Source: Planctomycetota bacterium
GTDB lineage: Bacteria > Planctomycetota > Planctomycetia > JALXBF01
Direction: 5' to 3'
Assembly (NCBI GenBank): GCA_026991575.1
Contig: JALXBF010000115.1
Location: 1 to 52,563 of the forward strand
DNA: 52,563 nucleotides
A model generated the notes under the pieces. It was not told the origin of the DNA. It searched no databases and was given only the letters and a program-made list of their open reading frames with translations. Shown piece by piece: positions 18,152-52,563 of the stretch (the first letter of the stretch is position 1; the number at the start of each line of letters is the position of its first letter). The position numbers and the translations under genes were made by a program.

Positions 18152-19468
18152 TCATCCGTACACGACCAACTTCTCCGTAAACGGAACAGCCATCCCCTCC
18201 TTGGAGCGGTGCCTGATGTACACGGCTCGATCACCTGGCCGACGAACGGAAACGTACATCTCGATGGTCATCTCCTTGGTGCCGGGAGTCAGATCGACCA
18301 CGACCTGACCCTCCGGGACGTTGCTAAGCCACTGATCTCTTAGCCCTTGCTGAGCCTCCACGAGCCGATCAGGGCTATCGAACTCGCAGAACACCCAGCG
18401 AGGTGACCGGGCAATCAAGCCTCTGGAGAAGCGTGCCACAAGGTCCCGAATCTCCTCGGCCTTCTGCCTCATGTTCTGCGTGTACAGCAGCAGCACCCGG
18501 TCCGGCTGTGTGGCGACGACGCTATAGAAAGCCGAAGCAGCGTTGCCGCTGGCGATCGTGACCAGCGTGTCCGCCGACTGCTGGCCCGTCTGCTGCAGCC
18601 ACTGCTCCCGCAACGCTGCAGCAACGCGGGGCATTACGACCCGCTGATAGTACGCCCTGGCTTTCTCATACTGTCCGGACGAAATCAGACGATCGAAGTA
18701 CTTTTGATGCTCTTGCGGCGGGGCGTCGGCTCGCGGGGCGGGCGGAAAGAGGTCCTTGCACGCCCGGAGCACCTCCCGAAGATCACGGTGCCGGCAGCTT
18801 AGCGAAACGATCTTCAACTCAGCACCCAGTTCTGCGCGCTTCCGCTCCGCTTCTTCTCGATTGAGCTCCGGAACCAGCAGTCGCTCTGCGCCGAGCTCCA
18901 CCGCAAGCTCGACCTTCTGAGGGATTCCCTTCACCGGAAGCACGCCAGACTCAGGGGACCACTCACCCGTGGCAAGACAGCGCAGCGGAGCCTCCAGCGT
19001 ATCCGCAACATCCAACAACGCGATCGCCGCGGGAACCCACCCGGACTCCCATCGCACCAGACTTGCGTCTGTCAGCAGCTCCACCGCCTCTTTCGATACC
19101 CCCTCGGGGGCACATAGGCGCCAGCCAGGCACGTCGAGGCTTCGGCTGACGCGGTCACCGAACGGCAGCACCAGACCGTCATCAGCTGCACCCGCCCGGC
19201 GCCACACAACCGGCAGCGCAATAGCCTGCCGCAGCAGCGGCACCTCCGCCAGCAGCACAAACAGAATCGCAGTGCGCCCTTCCCCGGTTGCTTCGGCCAG
19301 GTCCATCCTGTGGCTGTTGCCAAAGAGTTCATCCAGCCGGCGGAGCGCAGCCGGACACAAGATCCAGACACTCCACGGGCCGAAGGCTCGGGCAACCTGC
19401 GTTAACCGGCCCGGGGTCAACGCATCCAGTTCGGTATCGACTAGACGCAAGAGATCCGATCGAGTCAT
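18152..19468 (-). CDS. Lon-like protease domain fused to CARF-like sensor domain (cassette A)
   Basis: 438 residues from ATG 19468 (a GTG at 19540 is a longer option). Residues ~1-130 are an unassigned N-terminal domain. Residues ~138-205 match the S16/Lon proteolytic fold: SGWVPAAIALL with candidate nucleophile S142, TGEW (167-170), then VLPVKGIPQK with K185, followed by the typical GAERLLVP strand. The Ser-Lys spacing is 43, as in Lon, and the Lys aligns with that of LonB proteases. A helical linker (YFDRL...ARAYYQRVV) leads to a CARF-like Rossmann domain (~300-420) with LVTIASGN at its first strand and VVVDLTPGTKEM at 388-400, resembling the ligand-binding motif of Card1/Can-type CARF proteins. 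I infer a nucleotide-gated protease. It is the last gene of a minus-strand set with a helical/beta protein (44-bp coding overlap-free gap of ~0.1 kb) and a sigma factor. A full-length paralogue sits at 48-49.5 kb. Confidence 0.75.
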   Translation of the reverse strand: MTRSDLLRLVDTELDALTPGRLTQVARAFGPWSVWILCPAALRRLDELFGNSHRMDLAEATGEGRTAILFVLLAEVPLLRQAIALPVVWRRAGAADDGLVLPFGDRVSRSLDVPGWRLCAPEGVSKEAVELLTDASLVRWESGWVPAAIALLDVADTLEAPLRCLATGEWSPESGVLPVKGIPQKVELAVELGAERLLVPELNREEAERKRAELGAELKIVSLSCRHRDLREVLRACKDLFPPAPRADAPPQEHQKYFDRLISSGQYEKARAYYQRVVMPRVAAALREQWLQQTGQQSADTLVTIASGNAASAFYSVVATQPDRVLLLYTQNMRQKAEEIRDLVARFSRGLIARSPRWVFCEFDSPDRLVEAQQGLRDQWLSNVPEGQVVVDLTPGTKEMTIEMYVSVRRPGDRAVYIRHRSKEGMAVPFTEKLVVYG

Positions 19469-19584
19469 CGGAGTGCTCTTGCTCCGCTTCGATTGTTCCC
19501 CCGTTGTCGCCGGCGACAGCTCTCGTCCTCGAGATACCACTCGCCGGCCACCCCCGTGCGCTTACTGTCGTTACGCCAACAGTG

Positions 19585-20757
19585 TCAGCCTGTCGATTCA
19601 GGCCTCTCGTCCTGTTCGACCACACGCTGGGCTTCGCGCAGGGCGTCCAGGTCCGGCGGCCACTCCAGCGGCTCTGTTCCCGGTATGCTCACCTCAAGCC
19701 GCACCGGGGTGTCTTCAGCCAGTTGCCGGCGAAGTTCACGGACTGAGAACGAACAACGGCCTGATTCGTCGATGGTGGTCGTGACGCCGGCCAGTCGAAC
19801 CAGGCCCCCGGCCAGTTCCGTCGCCTCACTGCCGTCCGAATGGCGCACGAACAGCATTCGGATCTCGTCTTCGTCGCTCAGCGGATAACGGATTCTGCTC
19901 TCGGCACGGTACCGCCGCTGTGGATCGTGCCAGACGAGCCAGACCGGGATCCCGGTTCCGCGAGCAGCGGCTCGCACGGTGATGAGACCTGGCGGAAAAC
20001 GGGGATACTCCGGCTCGGGCCGTGGGGGCTCCATTGCGTAGACTACCGCTTCCGCCTCTGCGGCGGTGGCAGCGGCTGCCGTGAGCCGAGCGGTTAGCTG
20101 CTGCAGATCGCGTTCAACGTCACGTGCCAGGGCCTCGGCTGCTTCATCCAGGCCCGGCCCCAGCCACCACGGGGTCTCGTGGGCGTACTCGGGCACGATC
20201 GCGTCGCGCCAGCGCTTCAGCAGCGGGTTGCCGCGAACGGTGCACAAAACGTCGACCTGCTCACGCAGCGCTCGGTCGTACTCATTGAGCGCATCAGTCA
20301 GGCGCCCGACCAGCCCCAGGAACTCCTCATCGGTCACTTCCCCTGCGTCGACCGCCTCAAGCAGTCTGTGTGTCAGCCCGGTATAGACCGCCTGGGCTTC
20401 CATGCGGTTGACGAGCGCGTCCAGACAGAGCTGTTCGCGCCGGGTGAAGTCCTCTTCCGCATCCCACTGCTGGCCGAGCTTACGGGCCTGGTCGGCAAAC
20501 GCCAGAAAGGCTTCGGTGGCTTGGGCCGTACCTAGTCGAACCAGGTGCAACGGGATCTGGCCAGGCAGCTGGTCCTGGGCAACCCCGAACAGAAGACACT
20601 CGCCCAGTGCTCGGGCCGCCGTGTAAGCGACGCGACGAGCCTCTGCGTCGTCCGTGGTCGGTTCGGTCACGGCCTGGTGTCGGAGTGCCTCAGCCAGTTC
20701 CCGTAACGGGGAAGCCGTCAATTGTTCACGCAGTCGCTGGATCTCTTCTGTGTTCAT
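19585..20757 (-). CDS. Helical protein with C-terminal beta domain (cassette A, candidate adaptor or anti-sigma)
   Basis: 390 residues from ATG 20757, with GGAG 7 bases upstream. Residues 1-250 are mostly alpha-helical, rich in Ala, Glu, Leu and Arg, with no recognised domain. Residues ~270-380 are beta-rich (LITVRAAARGTGIPVWLVW, then YRAESRIRYPL) and contain ATELAGGLVRLAGVTTTIDE, which is closely matched by ASELAGARVEFAGATAVIDE in the cassette B protein at 50959-52140; the two proteins differ by only three residues in length. There is no signal peptide or transmembrane segment, so it is cytosolic. It lies between a sigma factor and the Lon-CARF protein. By analogy with CalpT it could be the protease substrate or sigma inhibitor, but no anti-sigma motif is visible. 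The function is unknown. Confidence 0.7.
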   Translation of the reverse strand: MNTEEIQRLREQLTASPLRELAEALRHQAVTEPTTDDAEARRVAYTAARALGECLLFGVAQDQLPGQIPLHLVRLGTAQATEAFLAFADQARKLGQQWDAEEDFTRREQLCLDALVNRMEAQAVYTGLTHRLLEAVDAGEVTDEEFLGLVGRLTDALNEYDRALREQVDVLCTVRGNPLLKRWRDAIVPEYAHETPWWLGPGLDEAAEALARDVERDLQQLTARLTAAAATAAEAEAVVYAMEPPRPEPEYPRFPPGLITVRAAARGTGIPVWLVWHDPQRRYRAESRIRYPLSDEDEIRMLFVRHSDGSEATELAGGLVRLAGVTTTIDESGRCSFSVRELRRQLAEDTPVRLEVSIPGTEPLEWPPDLDALREAQRVVEQDERPESTG

Positions 20758-21023
20758 GGCTGCTCCGGCGGAAAATCCGCGTTTCCAAGACAAACCGTTC
20801 CAAACCAACCGGTCGGGGTCAGTTCAGCCACTGCCTCTGCCTGCATTTGTTACGACCCAGGGCGCAGACTCCTGACAGGAACCAGCCGCCACGTCTGCCG
20901 GGAGTCGCCGGCGGAGCCGGTCGCTTCCGGTCCTTGCCAGCCTGCCGGTACCATGGGCGGCGGCATGTGCACGTCGTGCTTCCGTCACGATGGCTGCCTC
21001 TGGGGTAACGTGACCGGTGCGCG

Positions 21024-21791
21024 TCAGCCGCGCAAGTTCTCGCGGAGTTCCTGAATCGCTTTAAGCTGCAGGAGATATCGCTTCTTCCGGCTCCACACGG
21101 CGTGCACCACAGCGGGGGAAACGCCTAGTTCCTGAGCCAGCGCCGTAGCGCGTCCGTGTTCCCACCCGGGATGGTCCAGATGAGGGGGTGGAAAGGATGC
21201 CGGGAGCTTGGCTTCGCTGCACCACTGGGCCCACACGACCGCTGGCACCTTGCGGTGCATTCCGGCCAGCACAAGCAGGATGATCCGGTCGCGTACCGGG
21301 ACCGACGCGAGAACTTCCAGGTCGTGCTGGCAAAACGGCTCGTTGCGTGCGGCGGTTTCGGCCGGTCCTGGAGCCGGGTCGTGCGGATCAAGGTGCGGGG
21401 CAGAACCGCCGTCATCGTGTTTGCGACCACCGCCGGTTGCAAGCTGCTCCCAGGACAGCTCTCGTCTTCTTTTCTTGACGAGATCGAGCAGGGCATTCTT
21501 CAGCACCCGGCGCGCCCAACCGACGAAGGGACTGCCGGCGCTGGGATTGTACGCTCCCTGCAGTACCTTCACCATCGCGTCCTGAACAACGTCCTCAAGC
21601 GTGGCGTCGTCGAAGCGGTTGCCGAAATGCAGTGCGTTCAGCATTCGCGACACCTGCATGAGCGCGTCGCGTACCCGGAGCGCAGCCGCGTCCTCTTGAT
21701 GCGGTGAAGCAGTTGGGTTGAGCAAAGTGGATACGGCAGCGTGTAACGCCGTTTGCTGCCCGGATGTCTGTTGCCCTTGACCCGCTGCCAT
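21024..21791 (-). CDS. ECF-type RNA polymerase sigma factor (cassette A)
   Basis: 255 residues from ATG 21791 (GGGAG 5 bases upstream; GTG 21803 is 4 codons longer). Residues ~45-115 look like sigma region 2: FDDATLEDVVQDAMVKVLQ, then SPFVGWARRVLKNALLDLVKKRRRE, the core-binding and -10 recognition helices. After an acidic, Gly/Pro-rich linker, the C-terminal ~60 residues read as region 4 with a helix-turn-helix (ATALAQELGVSPAVVHAVWSRKKRYL). ECF factors direct polymerase to small regulons and are usually held by an anti-sigma partner. The next gene downstream on the same strand (267 bases away) is the helical/beta protein, then the Lon-CARF protein. Region 4 contains an unusual insertion (MHRKVPAVVWAQWCSEAKLP) before the helix-turn-helix. 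Confidence 0.82.
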   Translation of the reverse strand: MAAGQGQQTSGQQTALHAAVSTLLNPTASPHQEDAAALRVRDALMQVSRMLNALHFGNRFDDATLEDVVQDAMVKVLQGAYNPSAGSPFVGWARRVLKNALLDLVKKRRRELSWEQLATGGGRKHDDGGSAPHLDPHDPAPGPAETAARNEPFCQHDLEVLASVPVRDRIILLVLAGMHRKVPAVVWAQWCSEAKLPASFPPPHLDHPGWEHGRATALAQELGVSPAVVHAVWSRKKRYLLQLKAIQELRENLRG

Positions 21792-48004: not shown

Positions 48005-49483
48005 ATGAACCACTTCCGTACTGCTGTTCGCCAGGTCGCGCCGGACAGAACATCTGGTCGACGCACAATGCATGGGGTCACGATTTCAAGGGAGACGTTC
48101 GATTCCCTCGCGGAGCTTGCCGAAGAATACGGCCGTCGTCCCCGGTTGCGGCCATACATCGCAGAGAAGGCCTGTGATCTGGTGCAAGCCTTCGCTCCGT
48201 GGTGGCTAACGGCCGAGGCCCTGGCACAGGCCAGCCGCAGTGGTACTCCGCCCGCAGATGCGGTGGATCCTGCAAGGTTCACCACTCACGGCCTGGCCCG
48301 CATCCTTTGCCTGTGGCCGACGGCACTGGCCGCGACCATCGAACGAACGGCACCCGCGCGGGACGGTGCTCGCTTGTTACGCGACGCTTGCGTCTTGCCC
48401 GTGCGGTGGGTTCTTGGTGCTTCGCGGCCTGTCAATCCTCTTCCCGATCCACTGGCTCAACTCGCTGAGACTGTCCGATGCGAACTACGGGAAGTCGGCC
48501 TGTTGGCGCACGGCCAGGAAGTCACCCTGGAGTGGTGCCTGGGCCCCTATCGCTTGAAGAGCCCCATCGAGTTCTGTGATGTACAGCTAAGTCTTGCGTC
48601 CGGCTTCGTCCCTTTGGCCTCGGCACTGATTGTGGCAGCGAACGGAGGCGAGCCTGCCGTGGGCGTGTGGTCCACGGGAGCGTGGAACGCGGAGTTCAAC
48701 TTTTGCGAGAACGTGGACGGCGTGCCGCAAAAGGTGCGGACAGCGCTTTCGTTTGGTGCCGAACACGTTTTCGTCCCCTCCGGAAACTACCACGAAGCAG
48801 CAAGGGAAGCAGCCAGGCCCGAGCAGGTGCATGCGCTGGCCGTGGGGCCATCGCTGGACCGAGTGCTCGCGCCGCTGTTGGTGGCCTATCGGGCAGAGCC
48901 ACCTGCCAACGCCTCCTACGAGGAGAAACGCGCGTACTACGTGTACACAGCCGAGTACGATCCGTCGCGCGCACGACGGTACTACGACCGGGCACTCCTG
49001 GAAGACGTCGCGGCCCGAGTGACGCAACGGATGGATGCCCAGCTTTGCTCGCTTGTGGAAGGCCGCTGCGCTCTGGTAACCGTGGCCAGCCAGAGTCCAG
49101 GTGTCGTGTTGCTGGCGGCTTTGGTATTCCGCCCTTGCCGAATCGTGCTCGTGTACGACGATGCGCAGGCCGCCAAGCAGGTGAATGACGAACTGAGGCA
49201 ACGCGGTTACAGCAACGTGGTATGCCTGAGGCTGGACGAAGACCATTTGGGCACAGTGAGGCAGCTCGCCGCAAAGATCAACGAGTGCACAGCGGGCCTG
49301 CCTGTCATCATTGACCTGACTCCGGGTAGCAAGAGCCACACGCTTGCGCTCTACCGGGCACCTGTACAACGGGCCCATCGCGTCTATCTGAGGAACCGCT
49401 GGACCCAGCCGTCCCGAAAGGGGGCGCGGGGGATCGAGGACCCCGACACGATGCAATACGTGACGGTGACAGACGACCAGTAG
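48005..49483 (+). CDS. Lon-like protease domain fused to CARF-like sensor domain (cassette B)
   Basis: 492 residues from ATG 48005 (ATG 48068, 21 codons in, is an alternative; neither has a strong ribosome site). It is a full-length paralogue of the 18152-19468 protein. The Lon-like region shows SGFVPLASAL with candidate S199, TGAW (224-227) and DGVPQK with K243, spacing 44, followed by GAEHVFVPSGNYHEA, aligned with SGWVPAAIAL, TGEW, KGIPQK and GAERLLVPELNREEA of cassette A. Then comes the shared linker (ARRYYDRALLEDVAARV) and a CARF-like domain with LVTVASQSPGVVLLAA (357-372) and PVIIDLTPGSKSHTLAL (433-449). The N-terminal ~180 residues diverge more. It is the first gene of a three-gene plus-strand set; the sigma-like gene starts 90 bases after its stop. 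Activity and ligand are unknown. Confidence 0.75.
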   Translation: MNHFRTAVRQVAPDRTSGRRTMHGVTISRETFDSLAELAEEYGRRPRLRPYIAEKACDLVQAFAPWWLTAEALAQASRSGTPPADAVDPARFTTHGLARILCLWPTALAATIERTAPARDGARLLRDACVLPVRWVLGASRPVNPLPDPLAQLAETVRCELREVGLLAHGQEVTLEWCLGPYRLKSPIEFCDVQLSLASGFVPLASALIVAANGGEPAVGVWSTGAWNAEFNFCENVDGVPQKVRTALSFGAEHVFVPSGNYHEAAREAARPEQVHALAVGPSLDRVLAPLLVAYRAEPPANASYEEKRAYYVYTAEYDPSRARRYYDRALLEDVAARVTQRMDAQLCSLVEGRCALVTVASQSPGVVLLAALVFRPCRIVLVYDDAQAAKQVNDELRQRGYSNVVCLRLDEDHLGTVRQLAAKINECTAGLPVIIDLTPGSKSHTLALYRAPVQRAHRVYLRNRWTQPSRKGARGIEDPDTMQYVTVTDDQ

Positions 49484-49573
49484 CTGCTGGTGCCACGGCC
49501 TCCAGAGGCTACGGGATCGACTGCTGGGACACCAGAACGGGGTGGCGTCGGTAGCGTAGCAGAGCAGAAGGTG

Positions 49574-50605
49574 ATGAGTGAGACCACACTTTACGGCTAC
49601 ACCTGCGAACAGTTGCAGAATCTCATCACGCGCGCCCGCAGCCTGGAAGACAACGACGCAGTCAGCGAGTTGCAGGGGCTGCTGACGAGGCTCGTGGAGA
49701 GTTTCCTCACGGGAGTTCCAGTGCCCCCCGGTCATTCCAGCGTAGAGTTCCAGAAATTCTTGGCGTTAGAGATCGTCCAAGAGCTCCTCTGCCATATCGT
49801 CTGGCCGCGGTCAGACGGTCGATACGCTTTCGACATCGGAAAAATGGACTCTGTCGACTCGCTGCGGGCGTGGGTCAGGGAGTGCGTGCGGCGGTGGCGC
49901 CGCAGGCAAGGCAGCGAGCGCCGCGTGAAACGGTTCACGGATCTGAAACGGGACGACAACGACGACGACACGGAACCGCCCAGCGTCAGTTTGGTTGATC
50001 CGAAGAGTCGACACCCGGTCGAAGCGATCGAACCGGACCCTCCGGCCCGGTACGTGTCCATCATGGGGTGCCTTTTTGATATCACCCAGTGGGCCGCGAG
50101 GCGACTGGCCAGCAAGAAATCGCTTGCGCAGGAATGGGTTGTTCGCTATTGGTTGTACGTCCGGCTGCGCTTGTACCAGCTGCTCTGTCGCCATGAGGAG
50201 AAGACGGTACGGCGCCCCTTGATTCTCCGCCTGGCCGAACGGTACATACCGTGGGATCCAGCCGTGGAGAACGTACCGTTGGCCAGGGACTGGCCAACGC
50301 TGGGGATGTGCTGGCAAGGCTTCGCCCGCCGAGCGGAAAGGCAGGAGACCTACGCGCAAACCTGCCTCATTGAGACCGTGTACGACCATCGCGCAGCGCA
50401 GGAGCCTTTCTCGGCTACGGACGAAGAGGCGGTGAAGAGAGCGATTCGAAATCAATGGGACCAGTGGTGCAGCCGGCTGCGCCGGCACCTCAAGGAGGCA
50501 GTAAGCGGTGTCTGCCCCTGGCACGAACCGGACGATACTCAACGCCAGGCTATGGAACTCTGGCACGCCGTTGCCTTTGGGGTACCGGAACGAGCCACCG
50601 AGTGA
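49574..50605 (+). CDS. Divergent ECF-sigma-like protein (cassette B)
   Basis: 343 residues from ATG 49574 (GTG 49490 is a longer option). Residues ~60-130 resemble sigma region 2: FLALEIVQELLCHIVW, then DSVDSLRAWVRECVRRWRRRQGSERRVKRF, comparable with the ECF sigma of cassette A, followed by an acidic linker (DDNDDDTEPPSVSLVDPKSRHP). The C-terminal ~180 residues are helical and Arg/Trp-rich and lack a recognisable region 4 helix-turn-helix, though a stretch near YWLYVRLRLYQLLCRHEEKT could correspond to cassette A's insertion. It is about 90 residues longer than its partner. A sigma-derived regulator with an altered promoter-binding half is the simplest reading; certainty is moderate. Confidence 0.6.
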   Translation: MSETTLYGYTCEQLQNLITRARSLEDNDAVSELQGLLTRLVESFLTGVPVPPGHSSVEFQKFLALEIVQELLCHIVWPRSDGRYAFDIGKMDSVDSLRAWVRECVRRWRRRQGSERRVKRFTDLKRDDNDDDTEPPSVSLVDPKSRHPVEAIEPDPPARYVSIMGCLFDITQWAARRLASKKSLAQEWVVRYWLYVRLRLYQLLCRHEEKTVRRPLILRLAERYIPWDPAVENVPLARDWPTLGMCWQGFARRAERQETYAQTCLIETVYDHRAAQEPFSATDEEAVKRAIRNQWDQWCSRLRRHLKEAVSGVCPWHEPDDTQRQAMELWHAVAFGVPERATE

Positions 50606-50958
50606 GTCGTAAAACGTTGAAGATGCCCCGGGGCGGTCTCAGCCGCGTTGCGCTTCCGTGTCAACAGCACTCGGCCCGGAAGGGTCAGAGCCGGTGGCAA
50701 CGATTGGACACCGCCTCTGCGGGTGGCCAGCATGGTTGGGAACCCGCCAGGAGGACCGGCGAGCGGTGTCGCATGAGGCCGTGGTCACGCTGAGGCGTCG
50801 AGTGGGAGCACGGCTGATGCGTCAGAAAACGCCGCGCTCTGCCCTATGAGGATGGAGAGGTGTACTGCCGGGCCTGCCCCGGCCTCTTCACGGTTCGGAA
50901 GGAGCCGGCCAAGTGTTATCAGACGTGGAAGGATCGTTACAGAGCGGAGCGACACAAG
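50606..50958. other. Intergenic region within cassette B, about 0.35 kb
   Basis: Gap between the sigma-like gene and the third cassette gene, similar in size to the 0.27-kb gap at the same sigma-to-adaptor junction of cassette A. In-frame GTG 50860 could extend the third gene. No other feature seen. Confidence 0.45.
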
Positions 50959-52140
50959 ATGGCTTCAATGAGAGTCGAGGCACAGCTGGCACGCCTGCAC
51001 AGCGAGTTCAACGTAGTCCTGCCCGATCCGGCCCGTTTGCTGCGCTGCTGGATCACAGAGTTCACGGAACTGTTGCCCAGGTTGCCCGAAGCGCTTGATG
51101 GGGACGATCCCACAGTTGCGCGGCGGCTGCTTACGTCCTGGGCTCGTCTCATGCGTGCCAAGCCCGCGCTTGTTGCGGCGGCTGCCGGCAGGCCACCTGA
51201 GCCAGGCGGGGGGGTGGCAGAGCAACTCGGGCTTCCGGAGCTGGCCGCGTGGGAGAGGCGTCTGCGAGATGAGCACATGGCGGCACTCGTTGAGAGGGCG
51301 AAGGCCACGGCCAACCCGAAGGCCTGGTCGGAGAGGCTCCAGGTGCTTCGCCGCGCCGTGGATGCGGCCGAGGAACCTGAGGACCTGCCGGATCGTACCG
51401 TCGAGCTTCTCAACGATCTGGACGAGCAGGAACTCCTCGACGCCTGCGCCGTGTACGCAGGCAGAACCGACCTGTCCTCGGAGGCGCTACTCGGTGTGCT
51501 CCGGGCTGCGGTGTGCGCGGAGGTTGACCTGTTCCTGCCGGCACGCGAGTACGTTCTTGAGGTCGCCCAAACACTACCGGGTGAACCCACGCACGCGGCG
51601 TTCGCTCCAACGTACTCGAAGTTCGAAGCGATCCTGGACGAGATTCTGGCAGCTGAACTGTTCGCCGAGGGACCGGCCGCGCCATCCTGGTTCCGAACCG
51701 AGCAACTCTTGGCCGAGACCATGCTGATCGGGATTGTCGCCGCCCTGCTGGAAGCGTATCGAGCCCAGCGGCCGGCGGTCCTGGCCGCTGCTGGTGAAGC
51801 CGAACGCGAAGAGTACCGCTCGGCACTCTGGCTCAGCCCTGATAAGCGGTTTGTGGCGCAACTGAGATGGGCACCTGCGGATGCGGCGCGACGCAAGCTG
51901 CCGATCCTCTTTCGCCACGCCTCGATGGTCCAGCGGCAAGTAGTACCGACAGATGCTGCCAGTGAGCTGGCGGGTGCCCGCGTTGAGTTCGCCGGTGCGA
52001 CGGCCGTCATCGACGAGCAGGCGACGGCCTGGTTTGACGTGGATGCGCTTGCGCCGGTCGAGAAAGAGCGAAGCTGGCAACTTGCCCGGCTGGTCGTGCG
52101 CCGCAACGGAACGACAGAGACGTGGACTTTGACCAAGTAG
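50959..52140 (+). CDS. Helical protein with C-terminal beta domain (cassette B, candidate adaptor or anti-sigma)
   Basis: 393 residues from ATG 50959 (GGAG ~10 bases upstream), three residues longer than the cassette A counterpart. Residues 1-260 are helical and rich in Ala, Leu, Glu and Arg (LLRCWITEFTELLPRLPEALDG; LLNDLDEQELLDACAVYAGR). Residues ~280-390 are beta-rich and contain ASELAGARVEFAGATAVIDE, the counterpart of ATELAGGLVRLAGVTTTIDE. No export signal or transmembrane helix. It is the last gene of cassette B and ends 90 bases before a transposase gene on the other strand. A substrate, inhibitor or adaptor role for the Lon-CARF or sigma partner is inferred from neighbourhood alone. 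Confidence 0.7.
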   Translation: MASMRVEAQLARLHSEFNVVLPDPARLLRCWITEFTELLPRLPEALDGDDPTVARRLLTSWARLMRAKPALVAAAAGRPPEPGGGVAEQLGLPELAAWERRLRDEHMAALVERAKATANPKAWSERLQVLRRAVDAAEEPEDLPDRTVELLNDLDEQELLDACAVYAGRTDLSSEALLGVLRAAVCAEVDLFLPAREYVLEVAQTLPGEPTHAAFAPTYSKFEAILDEILAAELFAEGPAAPSWFRTEQLLAETMLIGIVAALLEAYRAQRPAVLAAAGEAEREEYRSALWLSPDKRFVAQLRWAPADAARRKLPILFRHASMVQRQVVPTDAASELAGARVEFAGATAVIDEQATAWFDVDALAPVEKERSWQLARLVVRRNGTTETWTLTK

Positions 52141-52230: not shown

Positions 52231-52563
52231 TCAAATCGTGGGCAGGGAGCCCGTACAGAGCAGTTCTAGCAGATCGTTCGGGTTGGACGCGAGTCGCAAG
52301 CGAACGGAGTCAATGCTTTCCTCGGGACCGATTGCACCTCGGAGTAAGGACAACGCTAATCGGTTTACCAATGCCATATTCTGTGCCGACACGAGATGCC
52401 GAATGCGCATCTGGTCCTCGCGAAATGAAACATCCGAAACCCAGTGCAGCTGGTTCTCGATCGACCAGTGGTTTCGAATCACCTTCGCATGGAGCTCAGC
52501 ATCCGGCTCGGCGCTGGATACGTAGTAACGTACCTGCTCTGTCCTACGCCCAGACGACAGATG
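52231..52563 (-). mobile_element. ISAs1-like family transposase, C-terminal part (5' end outside window)
   Basis: The frame is open from the right edge to TGA at 52231 (about 110 residues visible). It contains RYYVSSAEPDAELHAKVIRNHW, then HWSIENQLHWVSDVSFREDQMRIR, the C-terminal catalytic region typical of ISAs1 (DDE) transposases (IEN near the last acidic residue). An internal GTG gives an 83-residue frame, but the coding sequence clearly extends upstream. It is the nearest mobile element to cassette B. The element's terminal inverted repeats are not resolved. Confidence 0.88.

Follow-up and report, generated by a model that had tools for sequence, protein, structure and literature searches.

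A CARF-Lon protease gene of Planctomycetota, the ECF sigma and two-domain protein genes that recur beside it, and its probable role in a type III CRISPR relay

Contig JALXBF010000115.1 of a Planctomycetota bacterium (assembly GCA_026991575.1), whose 52,563 nucleotides are referred to here as the window, carries a set of three genes called cassette A. These encode a sigma factor of the extracytoplasmic function (ECF) type, a two-domain middle protein (mid), and a fusion of a Lon (S16) protease to a CARF sensor domain (Lon-CARF). That they are consecutive minus-strand genes in this order had been proposed in a preliminary description of the sequence, and the gene calls together with the sigma and CARF-Lon matches confirm it. 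Gaps of 266 bases (sigma to mid) and 116 bases (mid to Lon-CARF) separate them. The set is a real, conserved module linked to type III CRISPR, on the evidence of its parts, its conservation, and its genomic linkage. Its features are as follows, all on the minus strand.

21024..21791, minus strand: ECF-type sigma factor, gene 1 of cassette A (P0003 from its ATG), 255 amino acids (aa), matched by PF04542, TIGR02937, and the family profile
19585..20757, minus strand: mid, gene 2 of cassette A, a two-domain adaptor and predicted anti-sigma factor, 390 aa; in most loci a homologue lies immediately upstream of CARF-Lon
20104..20706, minus strand: N-terminal helical domain of mid, from AlphaFold, profiles, and co-variation
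19657..19971, minus strand: C-terminal beta domain of mid, from AlphaFold, profiles, and co-variation
18152..19468, minus strand: Lon (S16)-CARF fusion protein, gene 3 of cassette A (P0001), from PADLOC CARF_LON, TIGR02710, and AlphaFold/Foldseek
19043..19045, minus strand: codon for S166 of P0001, the predicted catalytic serine, invariant in 42/42 and aligned with the DSAS-motif serine of A. fulgidus Lon
18914..18916, minus strand: codon for K209 of P0001, the predicted catalytic lysine, invariant in 42/42
18152..18571, minus strand: CARF sensor domain with a DxTxGTK motif, about residues 324-462 of P0001, from profiles, alignment, and Foldseek

What kind of protein does the third gene encode? 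Judged by its profile matches and predicted structure, it is a member of the catalogued CARF-Lon effector family, with a predicted S16 fold bearing a putative Ser-Lys dyad and a predicted CARF fold. The PADLOC model for this family, PDLC01981 (CARF_m2--CARF_LON), matches over the full length (E 2.3e-81, profile positions 1-406 of 408). The CARF family TIGR02710 matches at E 8e-8, and Lon families match more weakly than the PADLOC model. For the C-terminal domain, both family and structure searches point to CARF, and no SAVED family is among the PADLOC matches listed. Models were built with AlphaFold from shallow input alignments of 6-7 rows; that of Lon-CARF (AlphaFold2, 7 rows) has a predicted local distance difference test score (pLDDT) of 85.5. 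Foldseek pairs its C-terminal half with the CARF domains of Thermus Csm6 (TtCsm6; E 2e-8) and Cam1 (1e-6), and also with Can2, Cdn1, and Card1, while its N-terminal part retrieves the Lon protease domains of A. fulgidus, E. coli, and human (E 7e-6 and weaker). Both halves of the earlier claim, a Lon-type region followed by a CARF-like sensor, are therefore borne out by predicted folds. S166 and K209 are unchanged in all 42 CARF-Lon homologues, though family members are mostly less than 35% identical. The residue order in the Lon alignment had raised the idea that the serine was lost, with a Trp in its place; this was rejected, as the family alignment shows an invariant serine two positions before. 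An alternative upstream GTG start of the gene is possible at 19540. Used alone as a query, P0001 found no relative in the genome contig collection; a 3-sequence CARF-Lon alignment found six named loci there and no match in the viral contig collection.

The first gene begins at an ATG with GGAG upstream. Its product scores 37 bits against PF04542 (Sigma70_r2; cutoff 24), which places region 2 at about 21462-21611, and it matches TIGR02937 at 1e-8. The profile of the family hits ECF sigma factors of solved structure (E about 1e-9), so its assignment as an ECF-like sigma factor is confirmed. The product of the second gene belongs to no family in Pfam, NCBIfam, or PADLOC. AlphaFold gives it an all-helical N part (residues 1-242) and a small beta C part (270-366) with a pLDDT of 79.9, in agreement with the earlier reading of a 390-residue helical protein with a beta domain. 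VIA-align of this model returns mostly generic helical bundles, with Z up to 9.9, the range expected for helical models.

Are these three genes neighbors by chance? The CARF-Lon model was used to search relatives, the phylum, and the class. The surrounding DNA was fetched, and iterative profiles yielded 41 scored CARF-Lon loci (numbered with L below; genomes are numbered with G, the window's own being G000). A mid gene is present in 33, a sigma gene in 31, and both in 30, so that the co-occurrence of the trio across Planctomycetota was found in 30/41. The usual order is sigma, mid, CARF-Lon, and because it recurs in several planctomycete families, the trio is not a chance arrangement. The sigma genes fall into two subtypes, the second too diverged for Pfam and joined to the first by profile. 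Another family, x4 (about 210-270 aa), accompanies type-1 sigma genes in 12 of the 41 loci, lying between or beside sigma and mid. It has no Pfam or PDB match; a conserved His and TCYF-like and WGF motifs allow the guess that it may be a small nuclease. Three examples are the following.

L043:11523-12293: x4
L109:4907-5728: x4
L051:8706-9419: x4

At L055:9770-13683 (G008) the same sigma family occurs in a different setting that lacks mid and CARF-Lon; its neighbors there are a CARF-PDDEXK nuclease and a CARF7 (Cas_APE2256) protein.

Do the three proteins also evolve together? Partial correlations were calculated over 25 complete loci, with the two domains of mid treated separately. Sigma co-varies with the N domain of mid (mid-N) when CARF-Lon is controlled for (0.63, p 0.0025), and the C domain (mid-C) with CARF-Lon when sigma is controlled for (0.31, p 0.0025). 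Neither the cross pairs (0.10 and 0.07) nor mid-N against mid-C (0.03) reach significance over these loci. Clustering places sigma and mid-N in the same two subtype groups in 25/25 loci. On the CARF-Lon tree the sigma type changes six times by parsimony, at least three of these being forced by well-supported branches, while it changes once on the sigma and mid-N trees. In these comparisons the link from sigma to mid-N is the only robust one, and the C half of mid follows CARF-Lon less cleanly than the N half follows sigma.

The distribution of the two mid domains points the same way. In G013 and G018 the N domain occurs without the C domain, as part of helicase fusions that neighbor the same sigma type, and CARF-Lon is absent. 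The C domain otherwise occurs with CARF-Lon, except at two loci in the window's genome and at L050, where the available stretch ends just after mid. At L058, a type III-D locus, the gene in the mid position encodes HRESCHSC, which has the HxxxCxxC pattern of zinc anti-sigma factors, and it lies downstream of a Pfam-confirmed sigma gene; a candidate zinc-type anti-sigma factor takes the place of mid here. Taken together, domain distribution, co-variation, and the L058 motif suggest that mid bridges the sigma factor and the protease. The L058 locus (L058:6460-11162, G150) comprises sigma, a 279-aa protein, the 276-aa HxxxCxxC protein, and a CARF-Lon of 690 aa, and it runs divergently from cas10. 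The helicase fusions, one DrmD-like and one BrxH-like, lie with x4 beside the same sigma type at L051:7903-12517 (G013) and L052:7190-12486 (G018). These loci are near restriction or TmtA/PDC-S68 defence genes, and Cas10 was not detected; they are possibly a sigma-coupled defence system outside CRISPR.

What, then, ties CARF-Lon to type III CRISPR? For 17 of the 41 loci the fetched stretch includes type III cas genes, often directly adjoining. At L098, sigma, mid, CARF-Lon, cmr2, cmr3, cmr4, cmr5, and cmr6 follow one another on one strand, with 11 bases before cmr2, and at L048 a cas6 gene (PF10040 above cutoff) follows immediately downstream. The class was sampled with 398 genomes: of the 29 that carry CARF-Lon, 26 have a detected Cas10, versus 28 of the 369 others (odds ratio 106, Fisher p 1.3e-22). 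This test ignores genome relatedness, although the positive genomes come from several families. Repeat-associated mysterious protein (RAMP) genes are present in two of the three CARF-Lon genomes without detected Cas10. In the window neither cas genes nor a CRISPR-like repeat array were found. The preliminary description had reported as much, and it was right for the window; but the lack of cas genes is confined to this stretch, since three type III loci of the genome, on contigs C27, C32, and C183, each carry a GGDD-bearing Cas10. CRISPR arrays were not located, in that three cas-bearing stretches hold no direct repeats of such spacing. The earlier suggestion to look for Cas10 or another cyclase nearby was answered by Cas10, elsewhere in the genome. 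A cGAS/DncV-like nucleotidyltransferase (CD-NTase) was considered as an alternative nucleotide source and rejected: a search of the window's genome for the SMODS type (PF18144) found none. Because of the Cas10 co-occurrence, the cas adjacency, the GGDD Cas10 genes of this genome, and the lack of a SMODS CD-NTase in it, the source of the signal is very probably Cas10 acting in trans. Most likely, then, cassette A belongs to type III CRISPR as an ancillary module rather than being CRISPR-independent.

How might such a module work? Probably cassette A is a relay in which a cyclic oligoadenylate prompts CARF-Lon to cleave mid, an anti-sigma factor, and so sets the sigma factor free. Upon infection, Cas10 encoded elsewhere in the genome would make cyclic oligoadenylate, which the CARF domain of Lon-CARF would bind, most likely as a dimer. 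The ligand is most likely cyclic tetra-adenylate (cA4), a first guess prompted by its presence in several of the closest solved CARF structures. The ligand-bound CARF domain would activate the Ser-Lys Lon protease, which would then cut mid, whose C-terminal beta domain would serve as the docking or cleavage part. Until then, the N-terminal helical domain of mid would keep the ECF sigma factor inactive. Once mid is released or degraded, the free sigma factor would transcribe defence genes. We infer the ligand, the activation, the cleavage, the anti-sigma activity, and the target genes; for the anti-sigma activity, the co-variation and the HxxxCxxC motif of the L058 counterpart speak indirectly.

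There are experimental precedents for a relay from protease to sigma factor in CalpL-CalpT-CalpS (PMC11417357) and in CASP (PMC10028731). The former is a type III CRISPR set of a Lon-SAVED protease, an anti-sigma factor, and an ECF sigma factor (PMC11417357, PMC12751052). Cassette A shares with it a Lon protease with a C-terminal sensor domain of the cyclic-oligoadenylate type, an ECF sigma factor, an intermediate gene, and the linkage to type III CRISPR. It differs in that its sensor is a single CARF domain whereas that of Calp is SAVED, in that mid has no detected similarity to CalpT, in its position away from a cas operon, and in that its cleavage step is a prediction. The preliminary description had proposed this same Calp-like logic with a CARF sensor, and the invariant Ser and Lys, the type III cas adjacency, and the co-variation of sigma with mid-N lend it support, the reaction steps themselves being predicted. 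Neither finding that it named as a refutation, a missing S16 or CARF fold or three genes that do not occur together elsewhere, was obtained. CASP, or Craspase, is a type III-E system of Cas7-11-Csx29, Csx30, and CASP-sigma, in which the N part of Csx30 binds sigma and the C part is cut (PMC10028731). The relay proposed here would likewise have a CRISPR-activated protease acting on a sigma inhibitor, with the N part binding sigma and the C part being cut. However, its protease is Lon S16 and not the TPR-CHAT protein Csx29 with Cas7-11, and its gating is expected to be by a nucleotide, whereas that of CASP is by direct contact with the RNA-guided effector.

The window carries one cassette for each sigma subtype: cassette A and, at 48068-52140, the likewise complete cassette B.

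48068..49483, plus strand: second Lon-CARF protein, cassette B (PDLC01981 E 1e-66; Ser and Lys kept)
49490..50605, plus strand: diverged sigma-like protein of the second subtype, cassette B (profile sigC E 6e-51; no Pfam match)
50860..52140, plus strand: mid homologue with N and C domains, cassette B (profile search)

The sigC profile also finds the sigma factor of cassette A, at 2e-24. The gene order in cassette B (CARF-Lon, type-2 sigma-like, mid) differs from that in A, and a transposase fragment (52231-52563) lies close by at the contig end. Elsewhere in the genome, a third, solitary CARF-Lon (L042:9248-10669, G000:C183) is about 20 kb from a Cmr operon. A sigma gene (L054:7995-8729, G000:C12) and a mid gene (L053:15630-16907, G000:C34) sit at two contig ends without CARF-Lon. 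They could be neighbors, and the solitary L042 protein could serve them in trans. Finally, a two-domain mid homologue directly follows a type III operon (L096:13619-14863, G000:C32), with no sigma or CARF-Lon found nearby.

Several points count against the relay and have to be set beside the evidence for it. Its support comes from sequence, predicted folds, and genomic context. By the profiles used, 11 of the 41 loci lack mid, sigma, or both, some of them being cut by contig ends; L058 and L127 have other genes in the mid and sigma positions, and L042, L101, L103, and L120 are solitary CARF-Lon genes. A PDB profile search and Foldseek gave mid no credible relative, including among CalpT, Csx30, and solved anti-sigma factors, although the absence of a match does not prove a lack of homology. 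By eye the C terminus of P0003 looks like a helix-turn-helix, but Pfam does not recognize sigma region 4 in this protein. Inside each of the sigma subtypes, mid-N co-varies with CARF-Lon as well (0.43), which blurs the separation of the two halves of mid. Cassette A, in a window free of cas genes, is not beside any, though an effector that responds to a diffusible signal does not strictly need to be encoded next to a type III operon.

Could CARF-Lon simply kill? It has been described from prediction only and is thought to be a stand-alone killing protease, in an account that does not mention the sigma and middle genes (PMC9704534). The matching alternative to the relay is that it is a promiscuous or host-killing suicide effector, with sigma only driving the operon and mid acting as a protease inhibitor or scaffold. 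The solitary copies, one of them (L042) in this very genome, fit such a role. We consider it unlikely, given that in 30/41 loci the protease comes with its own dedicated sigma factor and with a two-domain partner, that the co-variation of sigma with mid-N goes beyond shared ancestry with CARF-Lon, and that the sigma and mid-N pair is also found without CARF-Lon (L051, L052). A slimmer chance is that mid is an antitoxin-like substrate whose cleavage frees a toxin such as x4, sigma being secondary. The position of x4 between or beside sigma and mid in 12 loci, and its presence in the helicase-fusion loci, could be read in this way, and CalpT too was initially read as toxin-like (PMC9704534). Yet x4 is absent from both cassettes of the window and was not found in 29 of the 41 loci, and its toxicity is unproven in a family with no Pfam or PDB match. 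It is very improbable that the same relay logic answers to a nucleotide other than a Cas10-made cyclic oligoadenylate. Such a signal would suit two cassettes, A and B, that are not beside cas genes, and a genome, G006, that has the trio and no Cas10 detectable with the profiles used. G006 does have RAMP genes, however, and the strong Cas10 co-occurrence, the cas operons adjoining 17 loci, a CARF domain closest to Csm6 and Cam1, and a genome with no SMODS cyclase all favor Cas10.

How much of this is new? CARF-Lon is not, as PADLOC already catalogues it (PDLC01981), and the cassette A protein is of that same family by its full-length match; in this part the earlier suggestion of an undescribed module does not hold. 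Of the steady pairing with an ECF sigma factor and mid, no description was found. A literature search returned no paper linking CARF-Lon with a sigma factor, though it did not cover the main CARF classification (Makarova 2020), where earlier notice is possible.

Overall, if the relay is true, it would be the third case of CRISPR-controlled proteolysis of a sigma inhibitor, after Calp and CASP. Its sensor would be a CARF domain and its candidate inhibitor a two-domain protein not described before, and Planctomycetota would hold tens of such loci. A specific substrate would be assigned to CARF-Lon, which has until now been regarded as a killing protease, and the coupling of CRISPR signaling to dedicated transcription would have arisen repeatedly. 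The cassette genes are compact enough for in vitro testing. One more tentative speculation is that sigma and mid-N are a plug-in output module that serves different immune sensors, coupled to the nucleotide-gated Lon-CARF via the beta domain where type III CRISPR is present, or directly to DrmD-like or BrxH-like helicases where no Cas10 was detected (G013, G018). Were that so, these planctomycete loci would represent not only a further CRISPR protease-sigma relay, but a more general route from defence sensors to transcription.

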